DNA of 55,940 nt from Pseudoroseomonas ludipueritiae (GTDB lineage Bacteria > Pseudomonadota > Alphaproteobacteria > Acetobacterales > Acetobacteraceae): assembly GCF_014490445.1 (NCBI RefSeq), contig NZ_JACTUZ010000016.1:1-55940 (forward strand), given 5' to 3'. Below are positions 37,474 to 53,324 of the stretch, one piece after another. A model generated the notes under the pieces. That model worked only from the letters and a program-made list of their open reading frames with translations, was not told the DNA's origin and ran no database searches. The position numbers and the translations under genes are program-made. The first letter of the stretch is position 1. The number at the start of each line of letters is the position of its first letter.

Positions 37474-37518
37474 AGCTGGCTTAGCCGGCTGAACCGTCAG
37501 GCTAGCCGTCCAGCTTCA
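37471..37518. terminator. Hairpin spanning the ends of two convergent genes
   Basis: TGAAGCTGG at 37471-37479 pairs with CCAGCTTCA at 37510-37518, with an inner TAGCC/GGCTA stem. It begins at the DUF3325 stop codon and reaches into the last codons of the convergent Bug gene. Plausible bidirectional terminator. Confidence 0.45.
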
Positions 37519-38491: not shown

Positions 38492-38581
38492 GCTGTCGTC
38501 TCCCTGCTTCCGCGGCTTGGCGCCGCTTGCTTGCCGGCAGGCTGATCCGGCTTGACGGCGGCATCCTGTCACCGCCAACAA

Positions 38582-38591
38582 TGCATACGCA
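38582..38591. promoter_or_regulatory. Near-palindrome TGCATACGCA, possible GntR operator
   Basis: Imperfect 10-bp palindrome inside an AT-richer pocket of the divergent Bug/GntR promoter region. FCD-type GntR proteins often bind short GTATAC-like dyads. Weak evidence. Confidence 0.22.
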
Positions 38592-38638
38592 AATGGATTC
38601 TCGAGCGCATCCACCATTCGGCCCAAGGGGGCATCAAC

Positions 38639-39331
38639 TTGCTTCGTGACATCGCCACCCCGCCCGACCACCGCACGCCCACTGCCGCCGATCTCGCCCA
38701 TGCCCGGCTCAAGACCCTTATCCTGGACAATCACCTGCCCCCTGGCGCGCAGCGGCTGGAGAGCGAGCTGGCCGTGCAGCTCGGCCTGTCACGAACCCCG
38801 GTGCGCGAGGCACTGGTGCGGCTGGAGCAGGAAGGGCTGATCGCCATCACGCCGCGCCACGGCATGCGGGTGCTCCCCATCGCTGCCGGCGATATGCGCG
38901 AGATCTACGAGGTTCTGACCAGCCTGGAACCCATGGCCGCGGAGCTGCTGGCCCGCCGCCCGGAACCAGCATGCGGGCTGGACCGCCTGGAAACCGCCTG
39001 CACCGCCATGGAGCAGGCGCTGGCGGCGCAGGACCGTACGGCCTGGGCGGCGGCGGATGAGGCGTTCCATCTCGGCCTCGCCGAACTCTGCGGCAACCGG
39101 CGCCTCGCGGGCATGGTGATGCAGGTCTGGGATCAGTCGCACCGCGCGCGGCTCTTCACCCTGAACCAGCGCCCGCTGCCGGTGCGCAGCACCACCGAGC
39201 ACCGCCGCGTGCTGGAGGCCATCGCGGCGGGCGAGGCCGAGCGGGCCCGTGAACTCTACCGCCGGCACCGCCACCGCAGCGGCGTGGAACTCGTCTCCCT
39301 CATCGAACGGAGTGGCGTGACATGGCTTTGA
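38639..39331 (+). CDS. GntR-family regulator, FCD type
   Basis: 230 residues from a TTG at 38639 with AAGGGGG about eight bases upstream; an in-frame ATG at 38552 would give an atypically long N-terminus. Winged helix: ARLKTLILDNHLPPGAQRLESELAVQLGLSRTPVREALVRLEQEGLI (shown in parts: LPPGAQRLESELA, SRTPVREAL). The FCD effector domain spans ~85-215, with the metal-binding set in AADEAFHLGLAEL and the later STTEHRRVLEAI. Family members sense organic acids such as citrate, malonate or lactate. It overlaps the dehydrogenase gene by ten bases and is divergent from a Bug gene. Confidence 0.9.
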   Translation: MLRDIATPPDHRTPTAADLAHARLKTLILDNHLPPGAQRLESELAVQLGLSRTPVREALVRLEQEGLIAITPRHGMRVLPIAAGDMREIYEVLTSLEPMAAELLARRPEPACGLDRLETACTAMEQALAAQDRTAWAAADEAFHLGLAELCGNRRLAGMVMQVWDQSHRARLFTLNQRPLPVRSTTEHRRVLEAIAAGEAERARELYRRHRHRSGVELVSLIERSGVTWL

Positions 39332-40428
39332 GCAGCAACACGGTCCGGGTGGCGCTGATGCCCGGCGACGGCATCGGCACCGAGGTGACGGAGGCTTGCA
39401 TCGCCGTGCTGGAACCGCTGGCGCGGCGGCATGGGCTGGGCCTCGGCTTCGACAGGCTGCGCGCCGGGGCCATGGCCTATCGCGACACCGGCAGTGCCAT
39501 GGATGAGGCGACCTTCGAGCGCGCGAGGGATGCCGATGCCATCCTGCTCGGCGCCATGGGCTGGCCGGGCATCCGCTATCCGGATGGCACGGAGATCGCG
39601 CCGCAGCTCGACCTCCGTTTCCGCCTCGGCCTTTATGCCGGGGTAAGGCCGATCCGCGCCCTGCCCGGCGTGCCCACGGCGCTGGCGGACCCACGTGCCG
39701 CGGAGATCGACCTGGTCATCCTGCGTGAGAGCACGGAAGGGCTCTTCGCCGCGCGCGGGCGGGGCGAGATCATCGACGACCGCGAGGCGCGCGACACGAT
39801 GGTGATCACCCGCGCCACCACGGAGCGCCTCTCGGACTTCGCCTTCAACCTCGCGCGCCGGCGGGCCGCGCGGCGCGGGCGCAAGGGGCGGGTCACGCTG
39901 GTGGACAAGGCCAATGTGTTCACCGGCTTCGCCTTCATGCGCAAGGTGTTCCACGAAACCGCCGCGAAACACGCCGATGTCGAGGCGGCGCACCACTACA
40001 TCGATGCCATGGCGCTGGACCTGGTCCGGCGCCCCTGGGATTTCGACGTGCTGCCAACCGAGAACATGTTCGGCGACATCCTCTCCGACCTCGGGGCAGG
40101 GCTGATCGGCGGGATGGGTTTCGCCCCCTCGGCCGATATCGGGGACACCCATGCGGTGTTCCAGCCCAGCCACGGCACGGCGCCCGACATCGCCGGAAAG
40201 GGATTGGCCAATCCGACGGCCATGCTGCTCTCCGCGGCCATGATGCTGGACTGGCTTGGGGAGCGTGGCGCGGGCCAGAGCTGGGCGGATGCCTCCGCCG
40301 AGCTGGAAGCCGCGGTGGATGCCGCCTTCGCGGAAGGCCTGCGGACGCCGGATATCGGCGGCACCGCCGGCACGGCAGAGGTGGCGCGCCGCGTGGCCGA
40401 CCGTATTGGAGCGCCAGCCCAAGCCTAG
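39322..40428 (+). CDS. Isocitrate/isopropylmalate dehydrogenase family protein, tartrate dehydrogenase-like
   Basis: 368 residues. Motifs of the NAD(P)-dependent beta-decarboxylating dehydrogenases: VALMPGDGIGTEVTEA, ILRESTEGLFAARG (the substrate-binding Ser/Glu region), VTLVDKANVFT with the catalytic Lys, and DVLPTENMFGDILSDLGAGLIGG with metal-binding aspartates. FQPSHGTAPDIAGKGLANPTA binds the cofactor. The family oxidises 2-hydroxy acids with a 3-carboxylate (isopropylmalate, tartrate, homoisocitrate). The GntR-Bug neighbourhood suggests catabolism of an imported hydroxy-diacid, with tartrate or a malate derivative most plausible. Coupled to gntR. Confidence 0.88.
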   Translation: MALSSNTVRVALMPGDGIGTEVTEACIAVLEPLARRHGLGLGFDRLRAGAMAYRDTGSAMDEATFERARDADAILLGAMGWPGIRYPDGTEIAPQLDLRFRLGLYAGVRPIRALPGVPTALADPRAAEIDLVILRESTEGLFAARGRGEIIDDREARDTMVITRATTERLSDFAFNLARRRAARRGRKGRVTLVDKANVFTGFAFMRKVFHETAAKHADVEAAHHYIDAMALDLVRRPWDFDVLPTENMFGDILSDLGAGLIGGMGFAPSADIGDTHAVFQPSHGTAPDIAGKGLANPTAMLLSAAMMLDWLGERGAGQSWADASAELEAAVDAAFAEGLRTPDIGGTAGTAEVARRVADRIGAPAQA

Positions 40429-40614: not shown

Positions 40615-41592
40615 CTACTGGACCCGGATGTTGCGGGCGCGGATCACCTCCCGCCACTTCGCGTTCTCCGCGGTGTTGTAGGCATTCCATTCCTCGGGCC
40701 GCATCGTCTCGGGCACGGTCGCGAGAGCGGCCAGGCGCTCGCGTGTGTCCGGCGCCGTCGCGGCGGCCACGAAGAGTTCGTTGAGGCGGCGCAGGATCGG
40801 CTCCGGCGTGCCGGCAGGGGCGAGCACGGCGATGTGCTCCGCCACCACCACATCGAAGCCCTGCTCCTTGAAGGTCGGGATGTCAGGCGCGACGGAAGAG
40901 CGGTCGGCGCTGCTGATCGCGAGGGCGCGGAGGTCACCGGACTGGATCAGCGGCAGCACGCCGGATGCGGCCTGGATGATCATCTGCGCCTCGTTGGCCA
41001 TCGTCCCCTGCACGGCGGGCGCGCCGGCGCGGTAGCCGACATCCGTCATGGTGACACCTGCGGCGCTGAGGAAAAGCTCTGTCGCCAGATGGGTGGAGGA
41101 GCCGGTGCCTGAATTGGCATAGACCATGCGGTTGTCGGGCCGTTTCGCCGCCGCGACCCATTCGGCCAGGGTCTTGTGCGGCGAGTTCTTCGGCACGCAG
41201 AGAATCATCGGCTGGGACGCGATCAGACCGATACCGGCGAAAGCGCGGTCGTTGTCGTAGGGCAGGGGAAGCAGGTGTGGCGCCATGGCGTAGGTCGAGA
41301 CGGTGCCGACCAGGACGGTGTAGCCGTCTGGCCGCGCCCGGGCGACCGAGGAGAAGCCGATTGTGCCATTGGCGCCGGCGCGGTTGTCGACAACAAAGCC
41401 GCGGCCCGTGTCCCGGCTCAGACGCTCCGCCAGGATACGGGCAACCGCGTCCGTGGAACCGCCTGCGGCCCAGGGGACAACGATGGTGACATTGCTGGTG
41501 GGGTAGCTCGGGGCGGAGCCCTGCGCCCGCAGCGCAAGGGGAGTGGACAGCAGGCCGAGCGTGGCGGCGCCGAGGACACGGCGGTGCATCAT
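40615..41592 (-). CDS. Bug/TctC-type binding protein (2)
   Basis: 325 residues from the ATG at 41592 (GGGAG ten bases upstream). The signal peptide is MMHRRVLGAATLGLLSTPLA then LRAQ. Bug motifs: YPTSNVTIVVPWAAGGSTDAVARILAERL, FVVDNRAGANGTIGFSSVA, ARPDGYTVLVGTVSTYA, NSGTGSSTHLATELFL and DVGYRAGAPAVQG. It follows the AMP-ligase operon on the same strand after 138 bases, so it may be read from the same transcript or have its own promoter. No membrane partner genes are in the window. Confidence 0.92.
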   Translation of the reverse strand: MMHRRVLGAATLGLLSTPLALRAQGSAPSYPTSNVTIVVPWAAGGSTDAVARILAERLSRDTGRGFVVDNRAGANGTIGFSSVARARPDGYTVLVGTVSTYAMAPHLLPLPYDNDRAFAGIGLIASQPMILCVPKNSPHKTLAEWVAAAKRPDNRMVYANSGTGSSTHLATELFLSAAGVTMTDVGYRAGAPAVQGTMANEAQMIIQAASGVLPLIQSGDLRALAISSADRSSVAPDIPTFKEQGFDVVVAEHIAVLAPAGTPEPILRRLNELFVAAATAPDTRERLAALATVPETMRPEEWNAYNTAENAKWREVIRARNIRVQ

Positions 41593-41730
41593 GGTTCGTT
41601 TTCTCCCATCGGCCGCCTGACCTGGTGGCGCGACAAGCCAACACCTACTGGTGAGTTCCTTGGAGCGGCAAGCGGTTATTTTGCGGCACAGCAACGATTC
41701 GGCTCCCCGGCCAGCCGTCCGTCGCGCCGG

Positions 41731-43350
41731 TCACGCGGGGCTGAGGCCCAGCAGCTTCACCGCGTGCTCGACCAGCAGCCGCTTCTGGATCTTGGAACTG
41801 GCGGTCATGCCGATCTCCTCGAACCCATCCACCACCCGCACGTAGCGCGGCACCTTGAAGCCGGCCATGTTCTGGCGGCTCCAGCCGATCAGCTCCTCTT
41901 CCTCCAATCGCTGGCCCTCGTTCAGGATGATGAAGGCGCAGGGCACTTCCATCAGCCGCTGGTCCGGAACCCCCACCACCACGGCCTGCCGGACGGCGGG
42001 ATGACGGTTGAGAATATCCTCGACCTCGGCGGGCGAGACATTCTCGCCCCCCACCCGCACGATGTCCTTGGCACGGCCGGTGAAGCGCAGGCGGCCATCC
42101 CGGTCCAGGCGGCCCAGGTCGCCGGTGGCGAGCCAGCCCTCGGGGTCCAGGGTCCTCGCGGTTTCCTCGGGCTTGTCGAAATAGCCCTGCATGACGTTCC
42201 AGCCGCGCACGAGGATCTCCCCCTCGGCATCCGGCGGGCAATCCCTGCCACCATCCAGCGCGCGGATGCGCAGCTCAACCCCCGGCTCCGGCAGCATGCG
42301 TCCCTCGACGCGGATCTCCTCCGGCTCCCACCAGCAGGATTGCGACACGTTGGGAGAGGCCTCGGAGAGCCCGTAGCCCACCACGCATTCCCGCGCGCCC
42401 AGCTCGTCGATGATCCGGCGCACGATGGTGGGGGAGGCCGCCGCCCAGGCGCCGCGCAGCACCAGCCGGCGCCGTGGCCGGTCCGGGTGGTTCAGCAGCA
42501 TCAGCGCCATGGTGTCGTTGCCGGAGAAATGCGTGCAACGCTCTTCCTCCATGATCCGCAGGGCCTCGCCGGCCTCGAAGCGGTCCATGGTCACCAGCGT
42601 CGCCACATGCTGCAGGCAGGACAGGATGGACAGGGTGGTGCCGGCGACGTGGAAGAAGGGGCGCGCGCTGTGGAAGCGGTCGGCGATGCGCAGCCCCATC
42701 CGCCCGCCGGAGAAGAAGGCATCGGCGCACATGCTCCGATGCGTCAGCAGCACGCCCTTGGGGAAGGAGGTGGTGCCGGAGGTGTACTGGATCAGCAGCA
42801 CGTCGTCCGGCCTGCAGCACGGCGCCACCGTCCGCCCTTGCCCCGCCGCCAGGAAATCGGCCCAGGCGGTCGCGGCGGCGGGGACCTCCTGGCCCAGCAC
42901 CACCACCTGGCGCAGCTCCGGCAGCGCCGCATCCGGCAGGGCGGCATCCAGGCCCGGGCAGATGCCGCGCAGCATGCCAACGAAATCCACGCGCAGGAAC
43001 CTGTCGGACAGGATCAGCAGGCTGACGCGGGACTGCCTCAGGGCATAGGCCATCTCGGCCGCCTGGAAGCGCGTGTTCACCGGCACCGTCACAGCGCCCA
43101 AGGAGCCAATGGCGAGGAAGATCGCCACCCAGCGCGGCCCGTTGCCCATGCAGAGGCCGACATGGTCGCCCCGCCGCAGGCCGGCAGCGGCCAGGGCGGC
43201 GCGGACGGCCGCCACGTCCTCCGCCAGCGCGGCATAGGTGATGCGGCCGGCGGGCGCGACAATGGCCTCCACATCCGGCGCGATGACCACGGCACGGTGC
43301 AGCGCGGCTTCCGTGGTCAGCGGGCAGATGCCCTCCAGTTCCATGCTCAT
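41731..43350 (-). CDS. AMP-forming acyl-CoA ligase (class I adenylate-forming)
   Basis: 539-residue enzyme activating a carboxylic acid to its CoA thioester through an acyl-AMP. The phosphate loop is IQYTSGTTSFPKGVLLTH, the A5-type stretch is VGYGLSEASPN, the hinge is GWLATGDLGRLDRDGRLRFTGRAKDIVRVGGENVSPAE (seen in pieces) and the catalytic Lys lies in TASSKIQKRLL. Length and motifs resemble fatty-acyl or aryl CoA ligases; chain specificity cannot be told. It is the last gene of the six-gene operon and its ATG overlaps the preceding stop (ATGA). Confidence 0.92.
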   Translation of the reverse strand: MSMELEGICPLTTEAALHRAVVIAPDVEAIVAPAGRITYAALAEDVAAVRAALAAAGLRRGDHVGLCMGNGPRWVAIFLAIGSLGAVTVPVNTRFQAAEMAYALRQSRVSLLILSDRFLRVDFVGMLRGICPGLDAALPDAALPELRQVVVLGQEVPAAATAWADFLAAGQGRTVAPCCRPDDVLLIQYTSGTTSFPKGVLLTHRSMCADAFFSGGRMGLRIADRFHSARPFFHVAGTTLSILSCLQHVATLVTMDRFEAGEALRIMEEERCTHFSGNDTMALMLLNHPDRPRRRLVLRGAWAAASPTIVRRIIDELGARECVVGYGLSEASPNVSQSCWWEPEEIRVEGRMLPEPGVELRIRALDGGRDCPPDAEGEILVRGWNVMQGYFDKPEETARTLDPEGWLATGDLGRLDRDGRLRFTGRAKDIVRVGGENVSPAEVEDILNRHPAVRQAVVVGVPDQRLMEVPCAFIILNEGQRLEEEELIGWSRQNMAGFKVPRYVRVVDGFEEIGMTASSKIQKRLLVEHAVKLLGLSPA

Positions 43351-44096
43351 TCCGCCGCCTTCCCGAAGCCGGCCATGGTGCGGCGCCAGGCCCCTTCGGC
43401 CAGATTCTCCTCGATCGCCATCAGTTCCGTGGCCAGGGCGCCGCGCGGGTCGCGCTCCACGCCCTCGTCGATGCAGCGCTTGGCCTGCCGCAGCGCGCTG
43501 GCGGGTGCCGCGGCGATGACGCGCGCGATCTCCGCCAGCGTCTCCTCCAGCGCATCCACCTCAACCAGGCGGGACACCAGCCCGGCCTGCACCGCCTCGG
43601 CGGCGGAGAGGCTGCGGCCGGTGAACATCATGTCCTTGGCCAGCCGCTTGCCGATGATGCGCGGCAGGCGCTGCGTCGCGCCCACCGTGCCCCACAGCGC
43701 CTCCGGCGTGCGGAAGGAGGCGGCAGGGGTCGCGATGACGAAGTCGCAGGCCGCCGCGATCTCGCCGCCCGAGCCCACGGCGGCGCCCTCCACCACGGCG
43801 ATGGAGGGCATGGGCAGCCGCTCCAGCGCCTCATAGGCCACGAAGCCCTTCAGGCGGCGGGCGCGGACCTGGTCCTCGTCCATGCCCTTGCGCTCCTTCA
43901 GGTCCGCGCCGGCGCAGAAGACGGGGCCATGGGCGCGCACCAGGACCAGCTTCGCCTCCTCCGCCACGGCGCGGCGGGCACCGGCCAGCAGCGCCTCGGC
44001 CATGGCGGTGTTCAGGGCGTTGCGCGCCTCCGGCCGGTTCAGGGTCAGGGTGACGACGCCGTCTTCCGTCTTCGCCCACAGCACAGCTTCGGTCAT
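43347..44096 (-). CDS. Enoyl-CoA hydratase/isomerase family protein (1)
   Basis: 249-residue crotonase-fold enzyme. The oxyanion-hole segments are GPVFCAGADLKERK and VEGAAVGSGGEIAAACD. Both catalytic glutamates of hydratases appear to be present: Glu in SGGEIA and Glu in FRTPEALWG. It most probably hydrates a 2-enoyl-CoA. Coupled to the ligase and CoA-transferase genes by 4-base overlaps on each side. Confidence 0.92.
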   Translation of the reverse strand: MTEAVLWAKTEDGVVTLTLNRPEARNALNTAMAEALLAGARRAVAEEAKLVLVRAHGPVFCAGADLKERKGMDEDQVRARRLKGFVAYEALERLPMPSIAVVEGAAVGSGGEIAAACDFVIATPAASFRTPEALWGTVGATQRLPRIIGKRLAKDMMFTGRSLSAAEAVQAGLVSRLVEVDALEETLAEIARVIAAAPASALRQAKRCIDEGVERDPRGALATELMAIEENLAEGAWRRTMAGFGKAAE

Positions 44097-45289
44097 AGCG
44101 CTCCCATCTCCCGCAATTCGGCGACGCGCGCCGCATCCATGCCGAGGCGCCGGGCCAGCACCTCCTCCGTATGCTCGCCCAGCAGCGGCGGGCGGCCCAC
44201 CTCCGGGTTGGCCCAGCCCTCGAAGCGCAGCGGCACGGGCAGGGCCGGGAACTCGCCCAGCACCGGATGCTCGAAGCGCGACACCATGCCGCGCGCCTGC
44301 ACGTGCTCGTCGGCCAATACCTCGTCCAGCGCCAGCACGGGGCCGGCGGGCACGCCAGCGCCGTCCAGCCTCGCGAAGGCTTCCCCGCGTGGCAGGCGGG
44401 CCATGGCGGCGTTGAGGGCCTGCATCACCTCCTCCCGCCGCGCCACGCGCCCGGCATTGGTGGACAGGCCGGCATCGGCCGCCAGCTCCGTCAGCCCCAG
44501 CGCGGCGCAGAGCGGCGCCCAGTGCTGGTCGCTGGCCGTGATATGCAGGTAGCGGTCGTCGGCGCAGCGGAAGCTGGCGCTGGGTACCCGGCCCGGATGC
44601 TCGGTGCCCAGGCGCGGCGGCACCTCGCCCAGGGCGAAGTTGCGGGCCGCCGCGATGGTCAGCAGCGCCACCTGCGCGTCAAACATGGAGAGGTCCACAT
44701 GGCCGCCCTTGCCGGTGCGGTCGCGCCCGCGCAGGGCCGCCAGGATGGCGATGGCGGCCCAGAGGCCGGAGGACAGGTCGGCCACCGGCAGCCCCGGCTT
44801 CACTGGCCCGCCGCCGCGCTCCCCGGTCAGGCCCATCAGCCCGCCCATGGCCTGGAAGACGGTGTCGTAGCCCTTCCGCTTCGCATAGGGCCCGGTCTGG
44901 CCGAAGCCGGTGCAGGACAGGTACACCAGGCGCGGATTGACCTCCGACAGCGCGGCGTAGTCCAGCCCGCGCCTCCCCAATGTGCCGACAGGGAAATTCT
45001 CCACCAGCACATCCGCCTGCGCGGCGAGGTCGCGGATCACGCGCCGCCCTTCCTCATGCCGCAGGTTGACGGTGATGGAGGATTTGGAGCGGTTGCAGGC
45101 CATGTAATAGCCACTGACGCTGCCGCCCTGCGCCTCGGCGAAAGGCTCGAAGCCGCGGGTCTCGTCGCCGCTGCCGGGTTGCTCCACCTTGATGACCTCG
45201 GCGCCCATCTCGGCCAGCAGCATGGTGGCGAAGGGGCAGGCCAGGACCCGCGACAGGTCCAGGATCACCAGGCCGTCCAGGGGCTTCAT
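44093..45289 (-). CDS. CaiB/BaiF (family III) CoA-transferase
   Basis: 398 residues. LDGLVILDLSRVLACPFATMLLAEMGAEVIKVE is the defining N-terminus, followed by RSKSSITVNLRHEEGR, LVENFPVGTLGRRGLDY and YLSCTGFGQTGPYAKRKGYDTVFQAMGG, in which the Asp of GYDT is the expected catalytic aspartate. The C-terminal GMVSRFEHPVLGEFPALPVPLRF is also typical. Such enzymes move CoA between acids through an enzyme-bound anhydride. In this operon it may activate the imported acid or recycle CoA from a product. ATGA overlaps on both sides. Confidence 0.94.
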   Translation of the reverse strand: MKPLDGLVILDLSRVLACPFATMLLAEMGAEVIKVEQPGSGDETRGFEPFAEAQGGSVSGYYMACNRSKSSITVNLRHEEGRRVIRDLAAQADVLVENFPVGTLGRRGLDYAALSEVNPRLVYLSCTGFGQTGPYAKRKGYDTVFQAMGGLMGLTGERGGGPVKPGLPVADLSSGLWAAIAILAALRGRDRTGKGGHVDLSMFDAQVALLTIAAARNFALGEVPPRLGTEHPGRVPSASFRCADDRYLHITASDQHWAPLCAALGLTELAADAGLSTNAGRVARREEVMQALNAAMARLPRGEAFARLDGAGVPAGPVLALDEVLADEHVQARGMVSRFEHPVLGEFPALPVPLRFEGWANPEVGRPPLLGEHTEEVLARRLGMDAARVAELREMGAL

Positions 45290-45984
45290 GCGAATTCCTC
45301 CCGCAGCGCGCGTGCCTGCGCGAAGCCTTCTTCCAAGGGGCGCGCGCCGGCGGCGCAGAGCCGCTTCAGCGCCAGCATGCGCGGCGGCGGCAAGGTGGCC
45401 AGCGAGGCCGCCAGGCTGACCGCGGCCGCCAGCAGCTCATCCTCCGGCACCGGGTTGGCGCAGAGGCCCAGCCGCTGCGCTTCGTCTGCCGGCAGGTCAT
45501 CGCCAGTGGCCAGCAGGCGGAACACCTCGCGCGGCGGCAGGTGCCGCAGCAGCACCGGGGCCATCAGGGCCGGCAGCATGCCATGCCGCGCCTCAGGGAA
45601 ACCCAGCTTCGCGCCCGGCGCCATCAGCATGGCGTCGCAGCCCAGCGCCAGGGCGGCGCCGGCCCCCAGCGCGGCGCCATGCACCGCCGCCACCACGGGC
45701 TTGCCGATGCGGCCCGGCGCCAGCAGCACCGTCTCGCTCAACGCCGACCTTGCGGCGCGCGCATCAGGGTCGGCGGCGATGGCGCGGATCTCGCCCAGGT
45801 CCGCCCCGGCGCAGAAGCCGGGTCCATCCGCCGCCAGGACCACGGCGCGCACCACCTCTTCCGCCGCCGCCTCCGCCAGCGCCTCCACCAGGCCCTGTGC
45901 GGTGGCCGTGTCCAGCGCGTTGCGCTTCTGCGGCCGGGACAGGAACAGCAGCCGCACGCCGTCCCGCGTGTCCTGCCGGATCAT
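45286..45984 (-). CDS. Enoyl-CoA hydratase/isomerase family protein (2)
   Basis: 232 residues from the ATG at 45984, which overlaps the upstream stop (ATGA); the open frame extends further but would run into the neighbouring gene. Crotonase motifs: LFLSRPQKRNALDTA, GPGFCAGADLGEIR and VHGAALGAGAALALGCD. The first catalytic Glu position is Ala here, while a Glu in FPEARHGML fits the second. That pattern suggests an isomerase or a hydratase of the one-Glu type rather than a classical two-Glu crotonase. Substrate unknown. Confidence 0.88.
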   Translation of the reverse strand: MIRQDTRDGVRLLFLSRPQKRNALDTATAQGLVEALAEAAAEEVVRAVVLAADGPGFCAGADLGEIRAIAADPDARAARSALSETVLLAPGRIGKPVVAAVHGAALGAGAALALGCDAMLMAPGAKLGFPEARHGMLPALMAPVLLRHLPPREVFRLLATGDDLPADEAQRLGLCANPVPEDELLAAAVSLAASLATLPPPRMLALKRLCAAGARPLEEGFAQARALREEFA

Positions 45985-46955
45985 GCCGGCGCCAGCGCGG
46001 GCAGACCGGCGAGGCGGCGGCGGGCGGCCTCGGCACCCTCGACCAGCCGCCGCATCACCACGGCGGCGGGGGGAATGTCGTCGATCAGCCCGGCGGTCTG
46101 CCCGGCCTCGACCTTGCCCCATTCCACATCGCCATCCAGCGCGGCGAGCTTCAGGCTGCGGCTGTTATAGAGCAGCGCCAGCGCCTCCTTCTCATGCCCG
46201 GCACGCTCGGCGGCATCGACCTCATCCGTGAAGCGGTTGCGCAACTGCCGCACCGGCAGCCCGCCGCGCCCCACCAGCGTGGTATCGGCCAGGGCGGCCT
46301 TGCGCACCATTTCCTTGTAGGCCGGGTGCACCGTGGCTTCCTCCGTCATCAGGAAGCGGGTGCCGAGCTGCGCGCCTTCCGCGCCCAGGGCGAACATGGC
46401 GGCGATGCCCTCGCCATCCGCCACGCCGCCGGCGCCGATCACCGGCAGCGACACCGCCTTCACCACCGCCCGCACCATCACCATCGCCGAAACCTCGTCC
46501 GGTGCCGGGTGGCCGCCAGCCTCGCCGCCCACGACGATCAAACCATCCACACCCGCCGCCTCCGCCTTCATGGCATGCAAGGGCGAGGCGACAACATGCA
46601 GCCACTTCGCGCCATAGGCCCGGAAGCGCGGCAGATGCGCCTTTGGCCCGCCCTGGGAGCCGATCACCACCGGCACGCGCTCGGCCTCGGCGATATCGAG
46701 GAATTCGCCGGAGCGCTTGTTATAGAGCGGGATATTGACGGCGAAGGGCGCGTCGGTGCCGGCGCGCACGGCGCGGATGGACTCCAGCAACGCATCAGGC
46801 CGCATCGGCCCGGCGGCGATCGTTCCCAATCCGCCCGCCCGCGCCACGGCCAGCGCCAGCGCGGCGGAGGAAGAGGCCCAGCTCATCCCGCCCTGCACAA
46901 TAGGATAGCGGATGCCGAGAAGACCCGGCAGGCGCGAAGCAAAGCCGAATTCCAT
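45981..46955 (-). CDS. Nitronate monooxygenase-like flavoprotein (NPD/FabK fold)
   Basis: 324 residues from the ATG at 46955, which shares one base with the stop of the Bug gene (TGATG). TIM-barrel FMN protein: LGIRYPIVQGGMSWASSSAALALAVARAGGLGTIAAG, then VVIGSQGGPKAHL, VVGGEAGGHPAPDE (phosphate/His motif) and VIGAGGVADGEGIAAMFALGAEGAQLGTRFL. Family members oxidise nitronates or act as enoyl reductases. Inside an acyl-CoA operon it may be a reductase or detoxifying oxygenase; this is not resolved by sequence. Confidence 0.88.
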   Translation of the reverse strand: MEFGFASRLPGLLGIRYPIVQGGMSWASSSAALALAVARAGGLGTIAAGPMRPDALLESIRAVRAGTDAPFAVNIPLYNKRSGEFLDIAEAERVPVVIGSQGGPKAHLPRFRAYGAKWLHVVASPLHAMKAEAAGVDGLIVVGGEAGGHPAPDEVSAMVMVRAVVKAVSLPVIGAGGVADGEGIAAMFALGAEGAQLGTRFLMTEEATVHPAYKEMVRKAALADTTLVGRGGLPVRQLRNRFTDEVDAAERAGHEKEALALLYNSRSLKLAALDGDVEWGKVEAGQTAGLIDDIPPAAVVMRRLVEGAEAARRRLAGLPALAPA

Positions 46956-47932
46956 CACAGCGATTCCGCACCGCTCTGCTTCACCAGCGGTCCCCATTTC
47001 GCGGCCTCCGCCTGCAGGAAATCAAGATAGGCTTCCGGCGCCAGTGGCGATGCCTCGCCACCCTGCGCCGCGAAGCCCTGCGCCAGCTCCGGGCTGTTCA
47101 GCGCGCGCGTGGCAGCGTCGCGCATGCCTTCGCGGATATGGGCCGGCGTGGCGGCGGGCAGGGCCAGGCCGTACCAGTTGTCCGAGATGACGCGCGGCAG
47201 GCCAAGCTCCGCCGTGGTCGGCACATCCGGCAGGCTCGGCACGCGCTGCGCGGTGGTGACGGCCAGCGGGCGGAAGGCCCCCGCCTCGATATGCGGCCGC
47301 AGCGCCGGCACGTCGGCAATCAGGTAGGTAAAGCGGCCACTCAGCAGGTCGGTGGCCGCCGGGGCGACGCCGCGGTAAGGAATGTGCAGCGCCTCCATCT
47401 TCGCTTCCGAGGCCAGAAGCGCGCTGGCCAGATGCGTGATGGAGCCGACGCCGGCCGAGCCGTAGTTCACCGAGCCCGGCTTCTGCTTCGCCAGCGCCAC
47501 CAGCGCGGCGAGCTCCTTGATGTCGGACTTCGCGTTCACCACCAGCACTTCCGGCACGCGCACCACCAGCGTCAGATGCGCCAGGTCCTTGTAGACATCG
47601 AAAGGCATCTGCTGCTGCGGCATGGCCGGCGCGATGGATAGCGCGCCGGGGCCGGTGAAGCCGAGGGTCGAGCCATCCGGCGCGGACTTGGCCACGGCGT
47701 CGGTTCCCAGCAGGCCGCCGGCACCGCCACGGTTCTCCACCACCACGGGCTGGCGCAACTCCTTGCCGAGCGCATCGGCGAAGACGCGGCCGAAGATATC
47801 GGCTGGGCCGCCTGCCGCGAAGGGAACGAACATGCGCACCGGCCGCTCCGGCAGCCAGCCACTGGCGGCGCGGGCCCGGACCGCCGGAAGGGCCAGCGTG
47901 GTCGCCAGCAGGGTGCGTCGCTTCAGCATCAT
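46955..47932 (-). CDS. Bug/TctC-type binding protein (3), first gene of CoA operon
   Basis: 325 residues with signal peptide MMLKRRTLLATTLALPAVRA ending RAA, and AAGGAGG just upstream of two adjacent ATGs. Bug motifs: LPERPVRMFVPFAAGGPADIFGRVFAD, VVVENRGGAGGLLGTDAVA, GSAGVGSITHLASALL and LHIPYRGVAPAATDLLSG. It leads the six-gene operon ending with the AMP ligase, so it probably captures the substrate of that pathway. Its promoter is shared with a divergent Bug gene and carries the MarR-type palindrome. Confidence 0.93.
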   Translation of the reverse strand: MMLKRRTLLATTLALPAVRARAASGWLPERPVRMFVPFAAGGPADIFGRVFADALGKELRQPVVVENRGGAGGLLGTDAVAKSAPDGSTLGFTGPGALSIAPAMPQQQMPFDVYKDLAHLTLVVRVPEVLVVNAKSDIKELAALVALAKQKPGSVNYGSAGVGSITHLASALLASEAKMEALHIPYRGVAPAATDLLSGRFTYLIADVPALRPHIEAGAFRPLAVTTAQRVPSLPDVPTTAELGLPRVISDNWYGLALPAATPAHIREGMRDAATRALNSPELAQGFAAQGGEASPLAPEAYLDFLQAEAAKWGPLVKQSGAESL

Positions 47933-47982
47933 CGTCCTCCTTGCGTGGGCTTGCTGCCCCTTCGCCGGAGAACCTAGGCTTG

Positions 47983-48003
47983 TTTGTTGATAATATCAAC
48001 CAT
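47983..48003. promoter_or_regulatory. MarR-type operator copy 1 (GTTGA-TAATA-TCAAC core)
   Basis: Perfect palindrome GTTGATA-A-TATCAAC at 47986-48000 inside the 21-mer TTTGTTGATAATATCAACCAT. It sits midway between the divergent starts at 47932 (minus) and 48061 (plus), about 53 and 60 bases from each. 18 of 21 bases are repeated at 52778-52798 next to the marR gene. Confidence 0.75.
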
Positions 48004-48060
48004 CAGGCATAGCCTTCTGCCGGCCGGAAACAAGGCAGAACAATGAAGGGAGAAATCGAT

Positions 48061-49029
48061 ATGGTGGCCACGCGACGCGGGCTGCTGGCGGCGGCAGGCA
48101 CCCTGGCGCTGCCGCTGGAGACCATGGCACAGGCGCGGCCCTGGCCGGACCGCACCGTGCGTTTCGTCATACCCTTCGCACCTGGCGGCCCGGTGGAAGT
48201 TCCGGCGCGCTTCATCGCGGAGCGATTGACGGCCGCTTTGGGGCAGAGCGTCATTGTCGAGACGCGGCCCGGCGCGGGCGGCGCGCTGGGCATCCAGTAC
48301 GTGGTGCAGACGGCGGACCCGCATGTGCTGCTGTTCACCACCTCCTCCGTGGCAGTGCTGCCATCGTTGCTGGCCGAGCCGGGCTACGATCCGTTTCGTG
48401 ACCTGGTGCCGGTCAGCATGATCGTGGATGTGCCCATGGCCATCCTGGTGCGGCCGGACTGGCCGGCGCGCAGCCTGGAGGATTTCCTGCGACAGGCGCG
48501 AAAGAACCCGCAGCGCTTTTCCTTCGGCTCCTCCGGCGCCGGTTCCACCACGCATCTGGCAGGGGAGTTGCTGAAGGTACGCGCCGGCATCGACATCCTG
48601 CACGTGCCCTATCGCGGTGGGGCGCAGGCGGTGAACGCGCTTTACGCCGGCGATACCGACATGCTGATCACGGGGCTGATCGAAACCATGACGCATGTGC
48701 GGGATGGGCGGCTGCGCGCGCTGGCCGTCACTTCTCCCCAGCGCAGCCCCGCGCTGCCGGACATACCGGCAGTTGCGGAGGAAGTCCCGGATTACAGCCT
48801 CAACATCTGGTACGGGCTGTTCGGCCCGCATGGCACGCCGCCAGGCGTGGTGCAGCGGCTGGCGAGCGAGATGGCGCCGCTGCGCGAGAACACGCCGCTG
48901 GCCGAGCGCATGGCCGCATCCGGCGCGAGGCTGCTGCTGGATGGGCCCGGGCCGCTGGAAGCCCGCATGCGGGCCGAGGTGCCCTTGTGGAAGGAGGTGG
49001 TCGCCTCCGCCGGCATCAAGCTGGAATAG
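48061..49029 (+). CDS. Bug/TctC-type binding protein (4)
   Basis: 322 residues from the ATG at 48061, preceded by GAAGGGAGA at seven bases; an ATG 18 bases earlier lies before that site. The signal peptide is MVATRRGLLAAAGTLALPLE then TMAQ. Bug motifs: WPDRTVRFVIPFAPGGPVEVPARFIAERL, VIVETRPGAGGALGIQYV, SSGAGSTTHLAGELL and LHVPYRGGAQAVNALYAG. Divergent from Bug 3 across a shared MarR-type palindrome; its 3' end overlaps the convergent hydratase gene by 14 bases. Confidence 0.93.
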   Translation: MVATRRGLLAAAGTLALPLETMAQARPWPDRTVRFVIPFAPGGPVEVPARFIAERLTAALGQSVIVETRPGAGGALGIQYVVQTADPHVLLFTTSSVAVLPSLLAEPGYDPFRDLVPVSMIVDVPMAILVRPDWPARSLEDFLRQARKNPQRFSFGSSGAGSTTHLAGELLKVRAGIDILHVPYRGGAQAVNALYAGDTDMLITGLIETMTHVRDGRLRALAVTSPQRSPALPDIPAVAEEVPDYSLNIWYGLFGPHGTPPGVVQRLASEMAPLRENTPLAERMAASGARLLLDGPGPLEARMRAEVPLWKEVVASAGIKLE

Positions 49030-49825
49030 ATGCCCAGGCCGGCTGGCGCTTAGCCTTGAAGGCGGCGATGCCTTCCTCGGCCTCGCCGCCGGCCGCGCAG
49101 CGGGCGAAGGCCTGGGCGCCGGCCTCGGCGTAATCGCCAGGGACCGGATCGCCCAATGCGGCCAGCAGCGCCTTGGTTTCCGCCAGCGCGCCAGGGGCGC
49201 CTTGCAGCACATCCGCCACCACGGCGGCCGTGCGGGCGGCCAGCGCCGCCGCATCCGGCAGCACCTCATGCACCAGCCCGGTGGCCAGGGCCTGCGGCGC
49301 ACCGATGGTGGCGCCCTGCAGCACCAGCCGGCCAGCCTGGCTGCGGCCCATGCGGTGTGCCAGCCAGGGCAGGATCTGCGCCGGCACCAGCCCACGCCGG
49401 ACCTCCGGTGCCGCGAAGCGCGCCTCCGCCGAGGCCAGCGCGATATCCGCCGCGCAGACCAGGCCGAGCCCACCGGCGAAGGCGGAGCCCTCGACGTCGG
49501 CGATCACCACCTGCGGCAGCGCGGCGATCGTCGCCAGCCGTGTGGCGGTGCGGCGGTTCCGGCTCAACTGCCGGGCGAGCTTCTCTTCGGGCGGCAATGG
49601 CGTGCCGGCTTCCGCGAGGTCGAGGCCCGCGCAGAAATGCCCGCCCGCGCCGGAGATGACCAGCACGCGCGCCCCGCGATCCTCGGCCAGCTCCGCCAGC
49701 AGCGCATCCAGTTGCCCGACCAGTTCGGCGTTCATGGCATTGCGCCGCGCCGGGCGGTTCAGGATGGCGCGGACCACGGCGCCGTCGCGCCGCACCAGCA
49801 GCGGGGCTTGTTCGTCGGTGCTCAT
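49016..49825 (-). CDS. Enoyl-CoA hydratase family protein (3), methylglutaconyl-CoA hydratase-like
   Basis: 269-residue crotonase-fold protein. Motifs: ILNRPARRNAMNAELV, GGHFCAGLDLAEAG, VEGSAFAGGLGLVCAADIALA and FAAPEVRRGLVPAQILPWLAHRMG. The combination FAGGLGLxxAxD plus xEVRRGLxPAxI with a single Glu resembles methylglutaconyl-CoA and related branched enoyl-CoA hydratases (LiuC/AtuE type). It directly follows an HMG-CoA-lyase-like gene with ATGA overlap, which supports a branched-chain hydration-cleavage pair. Last gene of its operon, overlapping the convergent Bug gene by 14 bases. Confidence 0.87.
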   Translation of the reverse strand: MSTDEQAPLLVRRDGAVVRAILNRPARRNAMNAELVGQLDALLAELAEDRGARVLVISGAGGHFCAGLDLAEAGTPLPPEEKLARQLSRNRRTATRLATIAALPQVVIADVEGSAFAGGLGLVCAADIALASAEARFAAPEVRRGLVPAQILPWLAHRMGRSQAGRLVLQGATIGAPQALATGLVHEVLPDAAALAARTAAVVADVLQGAPGALAETKALLAALGDPVPGDYAEAGAQAFARCAAGGEAEEGIAAFKAKRQPAWASIPA

Positions 49826-50745
49826 GCGTGTTCTCCCAGGCGCGTGGTGCGGGCATGCAGGCGGCGGCCCAGCAGGGCTTCGGCGGCACGGCCGGTGTCG
49901 CGCAGGCGCGCGATGTCCAGGCCGGTGCGCAGGCCCATGGCTTCGAAGAGCGTCGCCAGATCCTCCGTGCAGACATTGCCGGTGAAGCCCTCGCCATAGG
50001 CGATCTCGGCCGGATGCCCGCCAGTGCCGCCCAGCGCCGTGTCGAAATAGGTGATGCCCGCTTCCAGCGCCGCGACGTAGTTGGCCAGGCCGGTGCCACG
50101 CGAATCATGGAAATGCGCGATGACCACGGCGTCCCGCGGCAATTCGGCCTGTAGCAGCCGCATCAGTTCCCGCACGCGTGGCGGCGTGGCGCTGCCGATG
50201 GTGTCGCCCACCGCGATGCGCTTCACGCCCAGTGCCAGGTAGCGCCGCGCATCCTCCACCACGCGCGCGGGCGGTGTCGGCCCATCGAAGGGGCAGTCGA
50301 AGGCGACGGAAATGGTGCCGACGGTGGTGAAGGCATCCCCGGCCAGCGCCGCCATCTCCTCCACATTGCGCCACTGCTCGGCGCGGGAGCGGCGGAGGTT
50401 GCGCTGCGTATGGCCCTCGGAGGCCGAGACCAGAAAGCTGATCTCCTCCGGCGGCCGCGCATCGCGGGTGGCCAGGGCGCGCTGCACGGCGGCGGGGTTC
50501 GGACAGGTGGCCTTGAACAGCACGCCCGGGCGCGGCGGCACGGCCTCCAGCACCTCCACCGCATCGGCGAATTGCGGCACGTATTTCGGGTGGGAGAAGG
50601 AGGTGATCTCGATGCGGCGGAAGCCGCAATCCGCGATGCGCTCCAGCATGGCGGCCTTGTCGGCGGCGGGCAGCACGGTGGGCTCGTGCTGCAGCCCGTC
50701 GCGGGCGAAGCATTCGTTCAGGATGACGTCGGGCATCTCGGTCAT
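49822..50745 (-). CDS. HMG-CoA lyase-like (HMGL/pyruvate carboxyltransferase superfamily)
   Basis: 307-residue TIM-barrel lyase. Conserved: NECFARDGLQHEPTVLPAADK (RDGLQ motif), FRRIEITSFSHPKYVPQFADA, VGDTIGSATP and the metal-binding HFHDSRGTGLANYVAAL. The region equivalent to the catalytic GLGGCP loop of HMG-CoA lyase reads GGTGGHPAEIAYGEGFTGNVCTED, so His replaces the usual Cys. HMG-CoA lyases cleave 3-hydroxy-3-methylglutaryl-CoA to acetyl-CoA and acetoacetate; relatives act on other 3-hydroxy-3-methyl acyl-CoAs. The changed loop may mean altered substrate or mechanism. Coupled by ATGA to the ligase alpha subunit and to the hydratase. Confidence 0.88.
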   Translation of the reverse strand: MTEMPDVILNECFARDGLQHEPTVLPAADKAAMLERIADCGFRRIEITSFSHPKYVPQFADAVEVLEAVPPRPGVLFKATCPNPAAVQRALATRDARPPEEISFLVSASEGHTQRNLRRSRAEQWRNVEEMAALAGDAFTTVGTISVAFDCPFDGPTPPARVVEDARRYLALGVKRIAVGDTIGSATPPRVRELMRLLQAELPRDAVVIAHFHDSRGTGLANYVAALEAGITYFDTALGGTGGHPAEIAYGEGFTGNVCTEDLATLFEAMGLRTGLDIARLRDTGRAAEALLGRRLHARTTRLGEHA

Positions 50746-51611
50746 GCGGGGAGGAGATCCTTCAGCAGATCGATGGCGTCATAGGGCGTCAGCGCGACAT
50801 GGGCGCCGGCATCGCGCAGGGCGGCCAGCTTGGCGGCGGCGCCTTCCCGCGCATGGCCGATCAGGGCGCCGGCATGGCCCATCTGCCGCTCCGCCGGGGC
50901 ATGCCGGCCGGCAACCGTCGCGACCAGCGGCTTCGGGAAGCCCGCCAGCGCCTCGGCCAAGGCATATTCCTTGTCGCCGCCGATCTCGCCGCAATACAGC
51001 ACGGCGGCGGTGCCCGGGTCCTCGGCCAGCCCGGCCAGGTATTCATGCGGGTTGCGGCCGATGACGCTGTCGCCGCCCAGGTGGATGGCGATGCGCTGGC
51101 CGATGCCCGCCGCCGTCAGCAGCCGCGCCACGGTCAGGGTCAGCGTGCCGCTGCGGCCCAGCAGCGCCACCCGCCCGGGCATGCAGAAGGAAGGCGCGAC
51201 GGAGCCCAGCAACCCTTGCCCCGGCACGCAAAGCCCCAGCGTATTCGGCCCCACCAGCCAGCACCCGGCGGCGCGGGCCGCCTGCGCCGCGCGCAGCGTG
51301 TCATGCAGCGGCACATATTCGGCGGCGGCGACAATCGTGCGGATACCCATGGCGGCGCATTGGCGGATGGCGTCGCCCGTTCCTTCCGGCGGGGTGTAGA
51401 GGATGGCGGCATCCGCCGGGGCATCCAGGGCCGACAGGCCGTTCAACAGCGGCAATCCGTCCAACTTGCCGCCGCCCTTGCCCAGAGCGATGCCGGCCAC
51501 CACCGGTGTACCCGCCTCCCGCATGCCGGCCACCTGCCGGGCGGCGTAGCGGCCTGTGGGGTTGAACACCACGACCCGGCGGGGGAAGGCGTGCAGGAAA
51601 GGCGGCATCAT
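50742..51611 (-). CDS. Succinyl-CoA ligase-like alpha subunit (SucD-type)
   Basis: 289 residues. CoA-binding Rossmann domain (RVVVFNPTGRYAARQVAGMREAG, then NGLSALDAPADAAILYTPP) and ligase domain with GPNTLGLCVPGQGLLG. The phosphohistidine is in RQMGHAGALIG, matching the active His of SucD. With the beta subunit it should form an acid-CoA ligase using ATP or GTP. The set is diverged from housekeeping sucCD (e.g. the start is PFLHAFPRRVVVF rather than the usual SIL-type) and is embedded in a catabolic operon, so a substrate other than succinate is likely, such as malate, itaconate or a branched acid. ATGA overlaps on both sides. Confidence 0.88.
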   Translation of the reverse strand: MMPPFLHAFPRRVVVFNPTGRYAARQVAGMREAGTPVVAGIALGKGGGKLDGLPLLNGLSALDAPADAAILYTPPEGTGDAIRQCAAMGIRTIVAAAEYVPLHDTLRAAQAARAAGCWLVGPNTLGLCVPGQGLLGSVAPSFCMPGRVALLGRSGTLTLTVARLLTAAGIGQRIAIHLGGDSVIGRNPHEYLAGLAEDPGTAAVLYCGEIGGDKEYALAEALAGFPKPLVATVAGRHAPAERQMGHAGALIGHAREGAAAKLAALRDAGAHVALTPYDAIDLLKDLLPA

Positions 51612-52735
51612 GCGGCGAGATCCGTGGCCAGGGCGCGCACCAGTTCCAGCGGGTCGTCGCGCAGGGCGGCGATGCCGGCGGCGTTCAGCCGGCTGCGCGC
51701 CGCCTCGGCGTCGAAGCCCCGCGCGGCGGCGTGCGCGGCGGCGAAGCCGAGGTAGAGGGGCCTGGGCGGCGGGTTGCGCGCCAGGAAGGCCAGCAGGGTT
51801 TCCACCCGTTCCGCCAACGGGCGCGACGCGAGGGTCGTATAGAACAGGATGGCGCGCACCTCCGGCCGGGCGGCGATGGCGAAGGCTGCTTCCAGCCGCG
51901 CCTCCGTGGTATCGGCCGGGCCGTCCTGCAGGTTGTCCATGAAGCTGGCGGCCCGCAGGCCATGGTCGGCCAGCAGGTCCAGCAACTGCATGCCGAGGCC
52001 CGCGCCGGCGGAAACCAGGGCGACGTCGCCCGGCATCTCCACCAGCGCGAAGCCGCGCTGGCGTGCCCGCCGTTCCAGCGGCGTCAGGGCGGCTTCCTCC
52101 AGCCCGGCACTGGCAAGGGGAATATCATGGCGCGCCACGGCCGCGCCGTCGCGCACCAGCTTCGCATCGCAGGCGACCAGCCCGGCTGGCGTCACGGCCA
52201 GCGGGTTCAACTCCAACAACGCCAGGTCTTCCTCCCGCAGGATGCGGGCCAGGCGCAGGGCCAGCCTGGCGACACGCGCGGCGAGGTCCGGGGGCAGGGC
52301 GGCGCCGATGGCGGCGAAGCCCTTCTCGGCGGCGAAAGGGTCTTCCGGGTCTAGGTCCCAGCGCGATGGCGGGGCCGCCTGCTCGATCTCCACTCCGCCA
52401 TGGGCGGAGAACAGGCATTCAATCCGTTGCGTGGTGCCGTTCACGCGCAACGCCAGGTAAAGCTCGCGCTCGATCCGGACAGGTTCCTCCAGCAGGAAGG
52501 ACACCTCGCCGGCGATGGCCATCATGTCCTGGCGCAGGGCTGCGATATCCGCGGCGGCTGCGCGGCGCACCAGGCCGCGCTTGCCGCGCCCGCCCTCCAG
52601 GATCTGCGCCTTCAGCACGACCTCCGCGCCGAGATGCATGGGCACCGGGTCCGAGGCACCCAGCGCAACGCCCCGCGGCACCGCGATGCCGTGCCGGCGT
52701 AGCAGCGCCTTCCCGTCCATCTCGGTCAGCCGCAT
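51608..52735 (-). CDS. Succinyl-CoA ligase-like beta subunit (SucC-type, ATP-grasp)
   Basis: 375 residues from the ATG at 52735, which has GGGAGGAG nine bases upstream; a start at 52777 would sit against the operator. ATP-grasp part: MDGKALLRRHGIAVPRGVAL, VVLKAQILEGGRGKRGLVRRA, DLALLELNPLAVTPAGLVACDAKL (metal/nucleotide residues). The C-terminal flavodoxin-like part has the sequence VSAGAGLGMQLLDLLADHG, AASFMDNLQDGPADT and ILFYTTLASRPLAERVE. It is the first gene of the four-gene operon under the second MarR-type palindrome. Confidence 0.88.
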   Translation of the reverse strand: MRLTEMDGKALLRRHGIAVPRGVALGASDPVPMHLGAEVVLKAQILEGGRGKRGLVRRAAAADIAALRQDMMAIAGEVSFLLEEPVRIERELYLALRVNGTTQRIECLFSAHGGVEIEQAAPPSRWDLDPEDPFAAEKGFAAIGAALPPDLAARVARLALRLARILREEDLALLELNPLAVTPAGLVACDAKLVRDGAAVARHDIPLASAGLEEAALTPLERRARQRGFALVEMPGDVALVSAGAGLGMQLLDLLADHGLRAASFMDNLQDGPADTTEARLEAAFAIAARPEVRAILFYTTLASRPLAERVETLLAFLARNPPPRPLYLGFAAAHAAARGFDAEAARSRLNAAGIAALRDDPLELVRALATDLAA

Positions 52736-52777
52736 GGCCCGAGGCTCCTCCCGTTGTTGCGGGGCAGCTAGCGTCAT

Positions 52778-52798
52778 TTTGTTGATAGTGTCAACTAT
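52778..52798. promoter_or_regulatory. MarR-type operator copy 2 (GTTGA-TAGTG-TCAAC core)
   Basis: TTTGTTGATAGTGTCAACTAT; the palindrome GTTGA-N5-TCAAC lies at 52781-52795, between the ligase-beta start (52735, minus) and marR start (52857, plus). It matches copy 1 at 47983-48003 in 18 of 21 positions, the differences lying in the spacer and one flank base. Confidence 0.75.
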
Positions 52799-52856
52799 CT
52801 GCGCGTGCGCCGGCGGCGGCCTAGGACAAGCGGGGCTTCCCGCCTAGAATGCGCGC

Positions 52857-53324
52857 ATGCCTGCATCCCGCACCGCAGCCCAGGCCAAAGCTGCGCTGAC
52901 CATCAAGGACCTGCTGTCCTATCGCATCCATCAGCTTGCCAACGCGCTGAGCCGTGGCGCAGCCGCACGCTACCGACGGGAGTTCGATGTCAGCCTCATG
53001 GAGTGGCGCACGATCGCGTTGCTGGGCGACTTCGCTCCCATGACACTGAAGGACCTGGCGCGTCAGAGCGGGCTGGACAAAGGCCTGGCCAGCCGCGTGG
53101 TGAGCGGGCTGGTGCAGCGTGGCCTGGTGAAGCGCGGCACGGCCTCCGATGCGCGGGAGCTAGCGCTGAGTCTGACCCCCGCGGGCAAAACCGTCTTCCA
53201 GGGCCTCATGCGCTCGGCCAGCGAACGCGACGCGGCGTTCCGCGCGGCGCTGACAGACGCCGAGGCCGCCTGCCTGGAGAGCGCGCTCGGCAAGCTGATC
53301 CAGGTCGCGAGAACACAGGCCTGA
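52857..53324 (+). CDS. MarR-family transcriptional regulator
   Basis: 155 residues. Winged helix-turn-helix of MarR type: FDVSLMEWRTIALLGDFAPMTLKDLARQSGLDKGLASRVVSGLVQRGLVKRG (in parts: LKDLARQSGLDKGLASRVV) and the wing DARELALSLTPAGKTVFQGL. Dimerisation helices flank it at both ends (LSYRIHQLANALSRGAAARYRREF and the C-terminal helix). It is divergent from the ligase-beta gene with a palindrome between them, and the same palindrome lies at the other divergent promoter of the cluster. Probably the local repressor, released by an acid or acyl-CoA intermediate. Confidence 0.92.
   Translation: MPASRTAAQAKAALTIKDLLSYRIHQLANALSRGAAARYRREFDVSLMEWRTIALLGDFAPMTLKDLARQSGLDKGLASRVVSGLVQRGLVKRGTASDARELALSLTPAGKTVFQGLMRSASERDAAFRAALTDAEAACLESALGKLIQVARTQA

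Follow-up and report, generated by a model that had tools for sequence, protein, structure and literature searches.

A MarR-family regulator encoded in a 55,940-nucleotide stretch of Pseudoroseomonas ludipueritiae DNA (contig NZ_JACTUZ010000016.1, positions 1 to 55,940; hereafter the window) is, with a probability that we put at roughly 0.8, a local, pathway-specific repressor of the catabolic gene cluster beside it, acting through two closely similar operators that each lie between divergent genes. As the first-pass annotation of this DNA had counted, the cluster comprises ten minus-strand genes in two operons, six in operon A (47932 to 41731) and four in operon B (52735 to 49016), together with one plus-strand gene for a TctC/Bug-type binding protein (BugB) and marR itself (Table 1). 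We suggest a candidate local regulon in which a single regulator would act at two sites on three probable promoters, with 11 genes as targets; it is very probably a fresh example of a well-known type of bacterial control. Its moderate interest rests on the cleanness of the regulon and on an unusual lyase encoded in operon B.

Two operators in one cluster

The same annotation had pointed to two 21-mers, at 47983-48003 and 52778-52798, that agree at 18 of 21 positions and share the palindrome GTTGA-N5-TCAAC, and direct comparison bore out both the coordinates and the count. When the two intergenic stretches were shuffled 100 times, the best pair of 21-mers matched at 11-15 positions, against 18 in the real DNA. 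The distances to both flanking starts, first given as about 45-62 bases, kept their scale when re-measured with the likely starts: 50 bases to BugA (47932) and 57 to BugB (48061) for operator 1, and 42 to sucC (52735) and 58 to marR (52857) for operator 2. A mechanical list of open reading frames (ORFs) begins sucC at 52777 and BugB at 48043; we favour 52735 and 48061 because of stretches resembling ribosome-binding sites (RBS), such as GGGAGGAG 5' of the sucC ATG, and because of a relocated sucC in genome G292, whose product begins MRLTEADGK where that of the window begins MRLTEMDGK.

The genome scanned comprises 5.35 Mb in 394 contigs. GTTGA-N5-TCAAC occurs without mismatch twice in the window and three times in the genome, the third copy (C32:1613) having different inner bases and lying over an ORF of 129 amino acids (aa). 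The specific form GTTGATANTNTCAAC, with up to one mismatch allowed, returns operators 1 and 2 and nothing else in the genome, and its backward-read control returns none; random occurrence across the genome, which the first-pass annotation had named as a refuting outcome, is thus ruled out for this form. A looser form, GTTGAYNNNRTCAAC, again finds operators 1 and 2 as its two mismatch-free sites, where about 0.29 would be expected from base composition. With up to one mismatch it finds 23 sites, compared with 10 for the backward control. Thirteen of the 21 one-mismatch sites were inspected: 11 fall within ORFs of 80 aa or more and two (L091, L094) outside such ORFs. We did not extend the regulon to one-mismatch sites.

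Conservation with the regulator and the enzymes

We compared 13 loci (L033-L045) that carry a MarR relative at 52-97% identity. The pattern TTGA-N5-TCAA, with the outer bases left free, has 17 matches in 11 of these loci. Each of the 17 is found upstream of a cluster gene or of marR and has G/C at the outer and Y/R at the inner positions, which the search did not impose. It has none in L041 and L045, the former having a one-mismatch site before marR. Upstream of marR itself, seven loci have a perfect site, three a site with one mismatch and three none. In L040, L041 and L042 a second GTCAAC half-site comes no more than about 20 bases after the one-mismatch site before marR, GTTGACTNNGTAAAC; the two may form a split or tandem operator.

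Among 200 genomes of the family, 46 have MarR matches at E <= 1e-15; in 12 of them, the window's genome included, identity is 54-100% (in G161 the match is cut at a contig end), and in the remainder 30-38%. The 12 genomes contain 13 perfect GTTGAYNNNRTCAAC sites, 12 of which stand at promoters of the homologous cluster, and four further genomes, drawn from 250 of the order, contain seven, six of them at the cluster. In total, 18 of 20 perfect sites in 16 genomes with a marR ortholog are at cluster promoters. At least one perfect site is present in 12 of the 16; the other four are G106, G015 and G161, which belong to one genus and have one-mismatch sites near other Bug genes, and G267, in which marR is present and both the lyase ortholog and the site are absent. 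Within the genus of the window, sites occur in all five genomes with marR and in none of the six without (Fisher p 0.002), all eight sites are at the cluster, and the six congeners without marR have lyase relatives at 36-42% only. As a negative control, the motif is absent from all 18 loci (2.9-3.5 kb) around MarR paralogs of 31-38% identity. Matching contig coordinates suggest that nine of the genomes (G107, G162, G011, G168, G005, G195, G257, G283 and G292) are those that contain loci L036, L034, L037, L042, L043, L045, L035, L038 and L039, respectively, which served to refine the motif; the six marR-less congeners and G267 played no part in that refinement.

The strongest evidence for a single regulator comes from REARRANGEMENTS. 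Operon A of G195 is shortened to CaiB, ECHa and ligase and lies on contig C134 with a site between it and BugB; marR of this genome lies on C58, and the lyase ortholog is absent, with relatives at 37-40% only. In G292 sucCD has been relocated, and a separate perfect site stands 32 bp ahead of its sucC ATG; the stretch between BugA and BugB has two sites, and the lyase gene is preceded by one with a single mismatch. No site accompanies marR of this genome, which has lost its divergent enzyme operon. G005 and G087 likewise have a site at the enzyme promoter and none at marR. Since these marR copies lack a site while the enzyme promoters keep one, the enzyme operons are the primary place of the site. 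By comparison, the proposal that one MarR serves both promoter regions is therefore well supported: across the genus, site, regulator and cluster are either all there or all missing, and through rearrangements the site stays with the enzyme operons.

The regulator

The marR product matches the Pfam profiles MarR_2 (47.2 bits, cut-off 27) and MarR (36.0 bits, cut-off 24.6). Its AlphaFold model (mean predicted local distance difference test score 83.5, predicted template modelling score 0.69) has the MarR winged-helix layout, and the 50 matches listed by Foldseek are headed by MarR-family structures, with template modelling scores of up to 0.75 by query length. MexR is among both the sequence and the fold matches; aligned by fold, the two proteins are about 25-27% identical.

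Promoter overlap and proposed mechanism

Promoters were assigned by reading against the consensus, so that their positions are inferred (Table 1). At site 1, TTGATA-N17-TAGNNT is found on both strands in the window, L034 and L035 and on one strand in L033; at site 2, the minus-strand TTGACA-N17-CTAGCT directed toward sucC recurs in L033-L035, and L036-L038 have different -10-like boxes at a spacing of 16 or 18 bp. Likely -35 boxes of the catabolic promoters thus lie inside each palindrome, which makes repression through occlusion of RNA polymerase likely.

We infer the following mechanism. A MarR dimer would bind the MexR-type palindrome GTTGA-N5-TCAAC at both operators, of which operator 1 holds the likely -35 boxes (TTGATA, one on each strand) of the divergent operon A and BugB promoters and operator 2 that (TTGACA) of operon B, and the bound repressor would shut RNA polymerase out of all three promoters. 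The operators would be freed by an inducer, which is probably the substrate of the pathway or a CoA thioester of it.

The first-pass annotation had these sites covering the promoters of operon A, operon B, BugB and marR. For the first three this remains probable; for marR it is doubtful, as the predicted -10 of marR lies well downstream of site 2, and no perfect site precedes those marR copies that have no enzyme operon diverging from them. The centre of operator 2 is about 69 bases before the marR ATG. A TAGAAT box lies six bases before that ATG, with similar boxes in relatives, and would likely start transcription at about the ATG, giving a leaderless transcript. Because the probable marR promoter is downstream of site 2 and three of the 13 marR loci have no site, autoregulation is doubtful and would be weak at most.

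Table 1. Predicted control elements and genes of the cluster, by position in the window
Feature	Position	Strand	Remarks
Operator 1	47983-48003	strandless	TTTGTTGATAATATCAACCAT; palindrome core 47986-48000, GTTGATAATATCAAC; between BugA and BugB; equivalent in relatives
Operator 2	52778-52798	strandless	TTTGTTGATAGTGTCAACTAT; palindrome core 52781-52795, GTTGATAGTGTCAAC; between sucC and marR; equivalent in relatives
BugB promoter, predicted	47987-48015	+	TTGATA (47987-47992), 17 bp, TAGCCT (48010-48015); consensus
Operon A promoter, predicted	47971-47999	-	TTGATA (47999-47994), 17 bp, TAGGTT (47976-47971); consensus
Operon B promoter, predicted	52766-52794	-	TTGACA (52794-52789), 17 bp, CTAGCT (52771-52766); consensus
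marR -10, predicted	52845-52850	+	TAGAAT; sequence; similar boxes by eye in relatives
BugA, TctC/Bug-type binding protein	46955-47932	-	first gene, operon A
NMO/FabK-like flavoprotein	45981-46997	-	operon A
ECHb, crotonase family	45286-45984	-	operon A; likely start 45984, ORF-list start 46122
CaiB, class III CoA-transferase	44093-45289	-	operon A
ECHa, crotonase family	43347-44096	-	operon A
AMP-dependent acyl-CoA ligase	41731-43350	-	last gene, operon A
BugB, TctC/Bug-type binding protein	48061-49029	+	start from RBS-like AAGGGAG
sucC-like ATP-grasp CoA ligase subunit	51608-52735	-	first gene, operon B
sucD-like CoA ligase subunit	50742-51611	-	operon B
HMG-CoA-lyase-like protein	49822-50745	-	operon B; GGHP loop
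ECHc, crotonase family	49016-49825	-	operon B; nearest isohexenylglutaconyl-CoA hydratase
marR, MarR-family regulator	52857-53324	+	155 aa; Pfam profile and fold

Weighing the alternatives

Several observations weigh against MarR as the repressor of this cluster. The backward control of GTTGAYNNNRTCAAC also occurs twice in the window's genome, so the bare count is unremarkable and the positions and conservation of the sites carry the case. Of the 188 family genomes that have no close MarR, 70 contain at least one match to this looser pattern, and the motif alone is therefore not diagnostic. At site 1, the TAGNNT -10 at a spacing of 17 bp is confined to the window and to L033-L035, the three loci nearest to it, and is unclear elsewhere. 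G106 has the cluster, yet its NMO/BugB site is degenerate (GTTGACCTGCTCAAG), and at the same place G015 and G161 have one-mismatch sites with intact half-sites (GTTGAGCAGGTCAAC, GTTGAGCCCGTCAAC). Lastly, two perfect sites in marR-bearing genomes lie off the cluster (G168:C59, G292:C33), in an intergenic region between genes for an IclR regulator and a class III aminotransferase, where a perfect palindrome of the form GTTGAC-N3-RTCAAC is conserved (L085:1501-1515 and L116:1501-1515). It may be an extra target, or the site of another regulator of similar specificity.

These off-cluster sites would also suit an operator belonging to a regulator encoded elsewhere, such as an IclR or GntR protein, with marR a mere neighbour, as would the separate contigs of site and marR in G195 and the GntR/FCD gene at 38552-39331 of the window. 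We think this unlikely, for within the genus the sites occur solely where marR does, and their layout is identical to that of the MarR-family operator MexR PII. Slightly less probable still is that MarR binds and activates, or mainly regulates its own gene with the enzyme operons secondary; site 2 adjoins marR and seven of 13 loci have a perfect site before it, but the sites overlap likely -35 boxes instead of lying upstream of them, and marR has no site in three loci and a one-mismatch site in three others while the enzyme promoters of G005, G087, G292 and G195 keep perfect ones. The nearness of TTGACA and TTGATA to the -35 consensus could explain part of the conservation of each palindrome if the element were simply a strong promoter with back-to-back -35 boxes and no regulator. 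This seems very improbable, as all 17 matches retain both arms and the outer G/C although the search pattern left the outer bases free, the arm not needed as the operon B -35 is kept too, and the presence of sites tracks marR in the genus. Chance similarity of two intergenic stretches could draw on the two hits of the backward control, but it is to all intents ruled out by the shuffles, which reached no more than 15 of 21, and by the conserved positions in relatives. Repression by MarR through both operators thus stays the preferred account.

The pathway and its lyase

By nearest solved relatives, CaiB resembles succinate--hydroxymethylglutarate CoA-transferase, the lyase-like protein 3-hydroxy-3-methylglutaryl-CoA (HMG-CoA) lyases, ECHc isohexenylglutaconyl-CoA hydratase, the SucC-like protein succinyl-CoA synthetase beta and the NMO protein FabK-type reductases. 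These likenesses suggest a route in which a branched dicarboxylic acid would be taken up, activated with CoA, hydrated and cleaved.

The cysteine of the glycine-rich loop GGCP(F/Y)APGxxGN is catalytic in HMG-CoA lyase. The solved lyases shown have this loop; the window lyase has GGHPAEIAYGEGFTGN in its place, with GGHP and four extra residues, and so lacks the usual cysteine. GGHP is kept in all 14 further lyase matches, two of them from one genome, among 17 loci searched. On these sequence grounds the GGHP proteins are a divergent lyase subfamily. The window protein passes the NCBIfam cut-off for HMG-CoA lyase (PRK05692, 256.3 bits against 246) and has a Pfam HMGL-like match; we nevertheless do not class it as an HMG-CoA lyase, and plain HMG degradation was rejected as the pathway on account of the differing loop.

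A bolder and more tentative proposal, which we think somewhat likelier to fail than to hold, is that one MarR, through a MexR-type operator, governs a so far undescribed route of acyl-CoA degradation in Acetobacteraceae, with a relative in a Burkholderiales metagenome-assembled genome. The route would usually include a new subfamily of the HMG-CoA-lyase fold, with histidine and an inserted loop in place of cysteine, and its substrate would be a branched dicarboxyl-CoA other than HMG-CoA. If this is true, the regulon would define the pathway, as the operators mark its genes even where they are scattered. Searches with the operator could gather genes of the pathway where they are dispersed in other genomes, and MarR could act as a sensor toward finding the substrate.

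Neighbouring genes

A Bug gene starting near 41592, downstream of operon A, was considered as a member and rejected: a gap of about 138 bp separates it from the operon, and in L036-L038, the loci whose sequence covers this stretch, no such gene is present there on that strand. Four TctC/Bug-type genes lie within about 12 kb (37502-38734, 40615-41694 and 46955-47932 on the minus strand, 48061-49029 on the plus strand). On the plus strand at 38552-40428, the GntR/FCD regulator gene adjoins one of the isocitrate/isopropylmalate dehydrogenase family, with Bug genes on both sides; the pair is possibly a second small catabolic unit.

Comparison with known systems

Literature searches found no described counterpart of the system, which does not prove that none has been published. 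Through the nearest relatives of ECHc, the lyase and CaiB, the enzymes resemble the acyclic isoprenoid/leucine-type branch, in which a 3-hydroxy-3-alkylglutaryl-CoA is cleaved; they differ from it in that no biotin carboxylase is among the window's 12 cluster genes and that the lyase has GGHP and a longer loop.

PcaV, HcaR and HpaR are pathway-specific MarR-family repressors of catabolic clusters, and their structures are among the listed matches of the window MarR. The likeness is that of a local MarR gene beside CoA-dependent degradation genes, whereas the enzymes are others and the inducer probably is too.

The closest parallel at the level of DNA is MexR. As described, MexR operators are inverted GTTGA half-sites, 5 bp apart, that overlap promoter regions, and the MexR-binding duplex PII contains GTTGACCTTATCAAC (PMC9892617). 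The window sites equal PI/PII of mexR-mexAB-oprM in Pseudomonas aeruginosa, as given there, in half-sites and spacing and, by consensus, in promoter overlap; they differ in that each promoter region has a single palindrome and that the predicted targets are catabolic operons, where that of MexR is a drug efflux pump.

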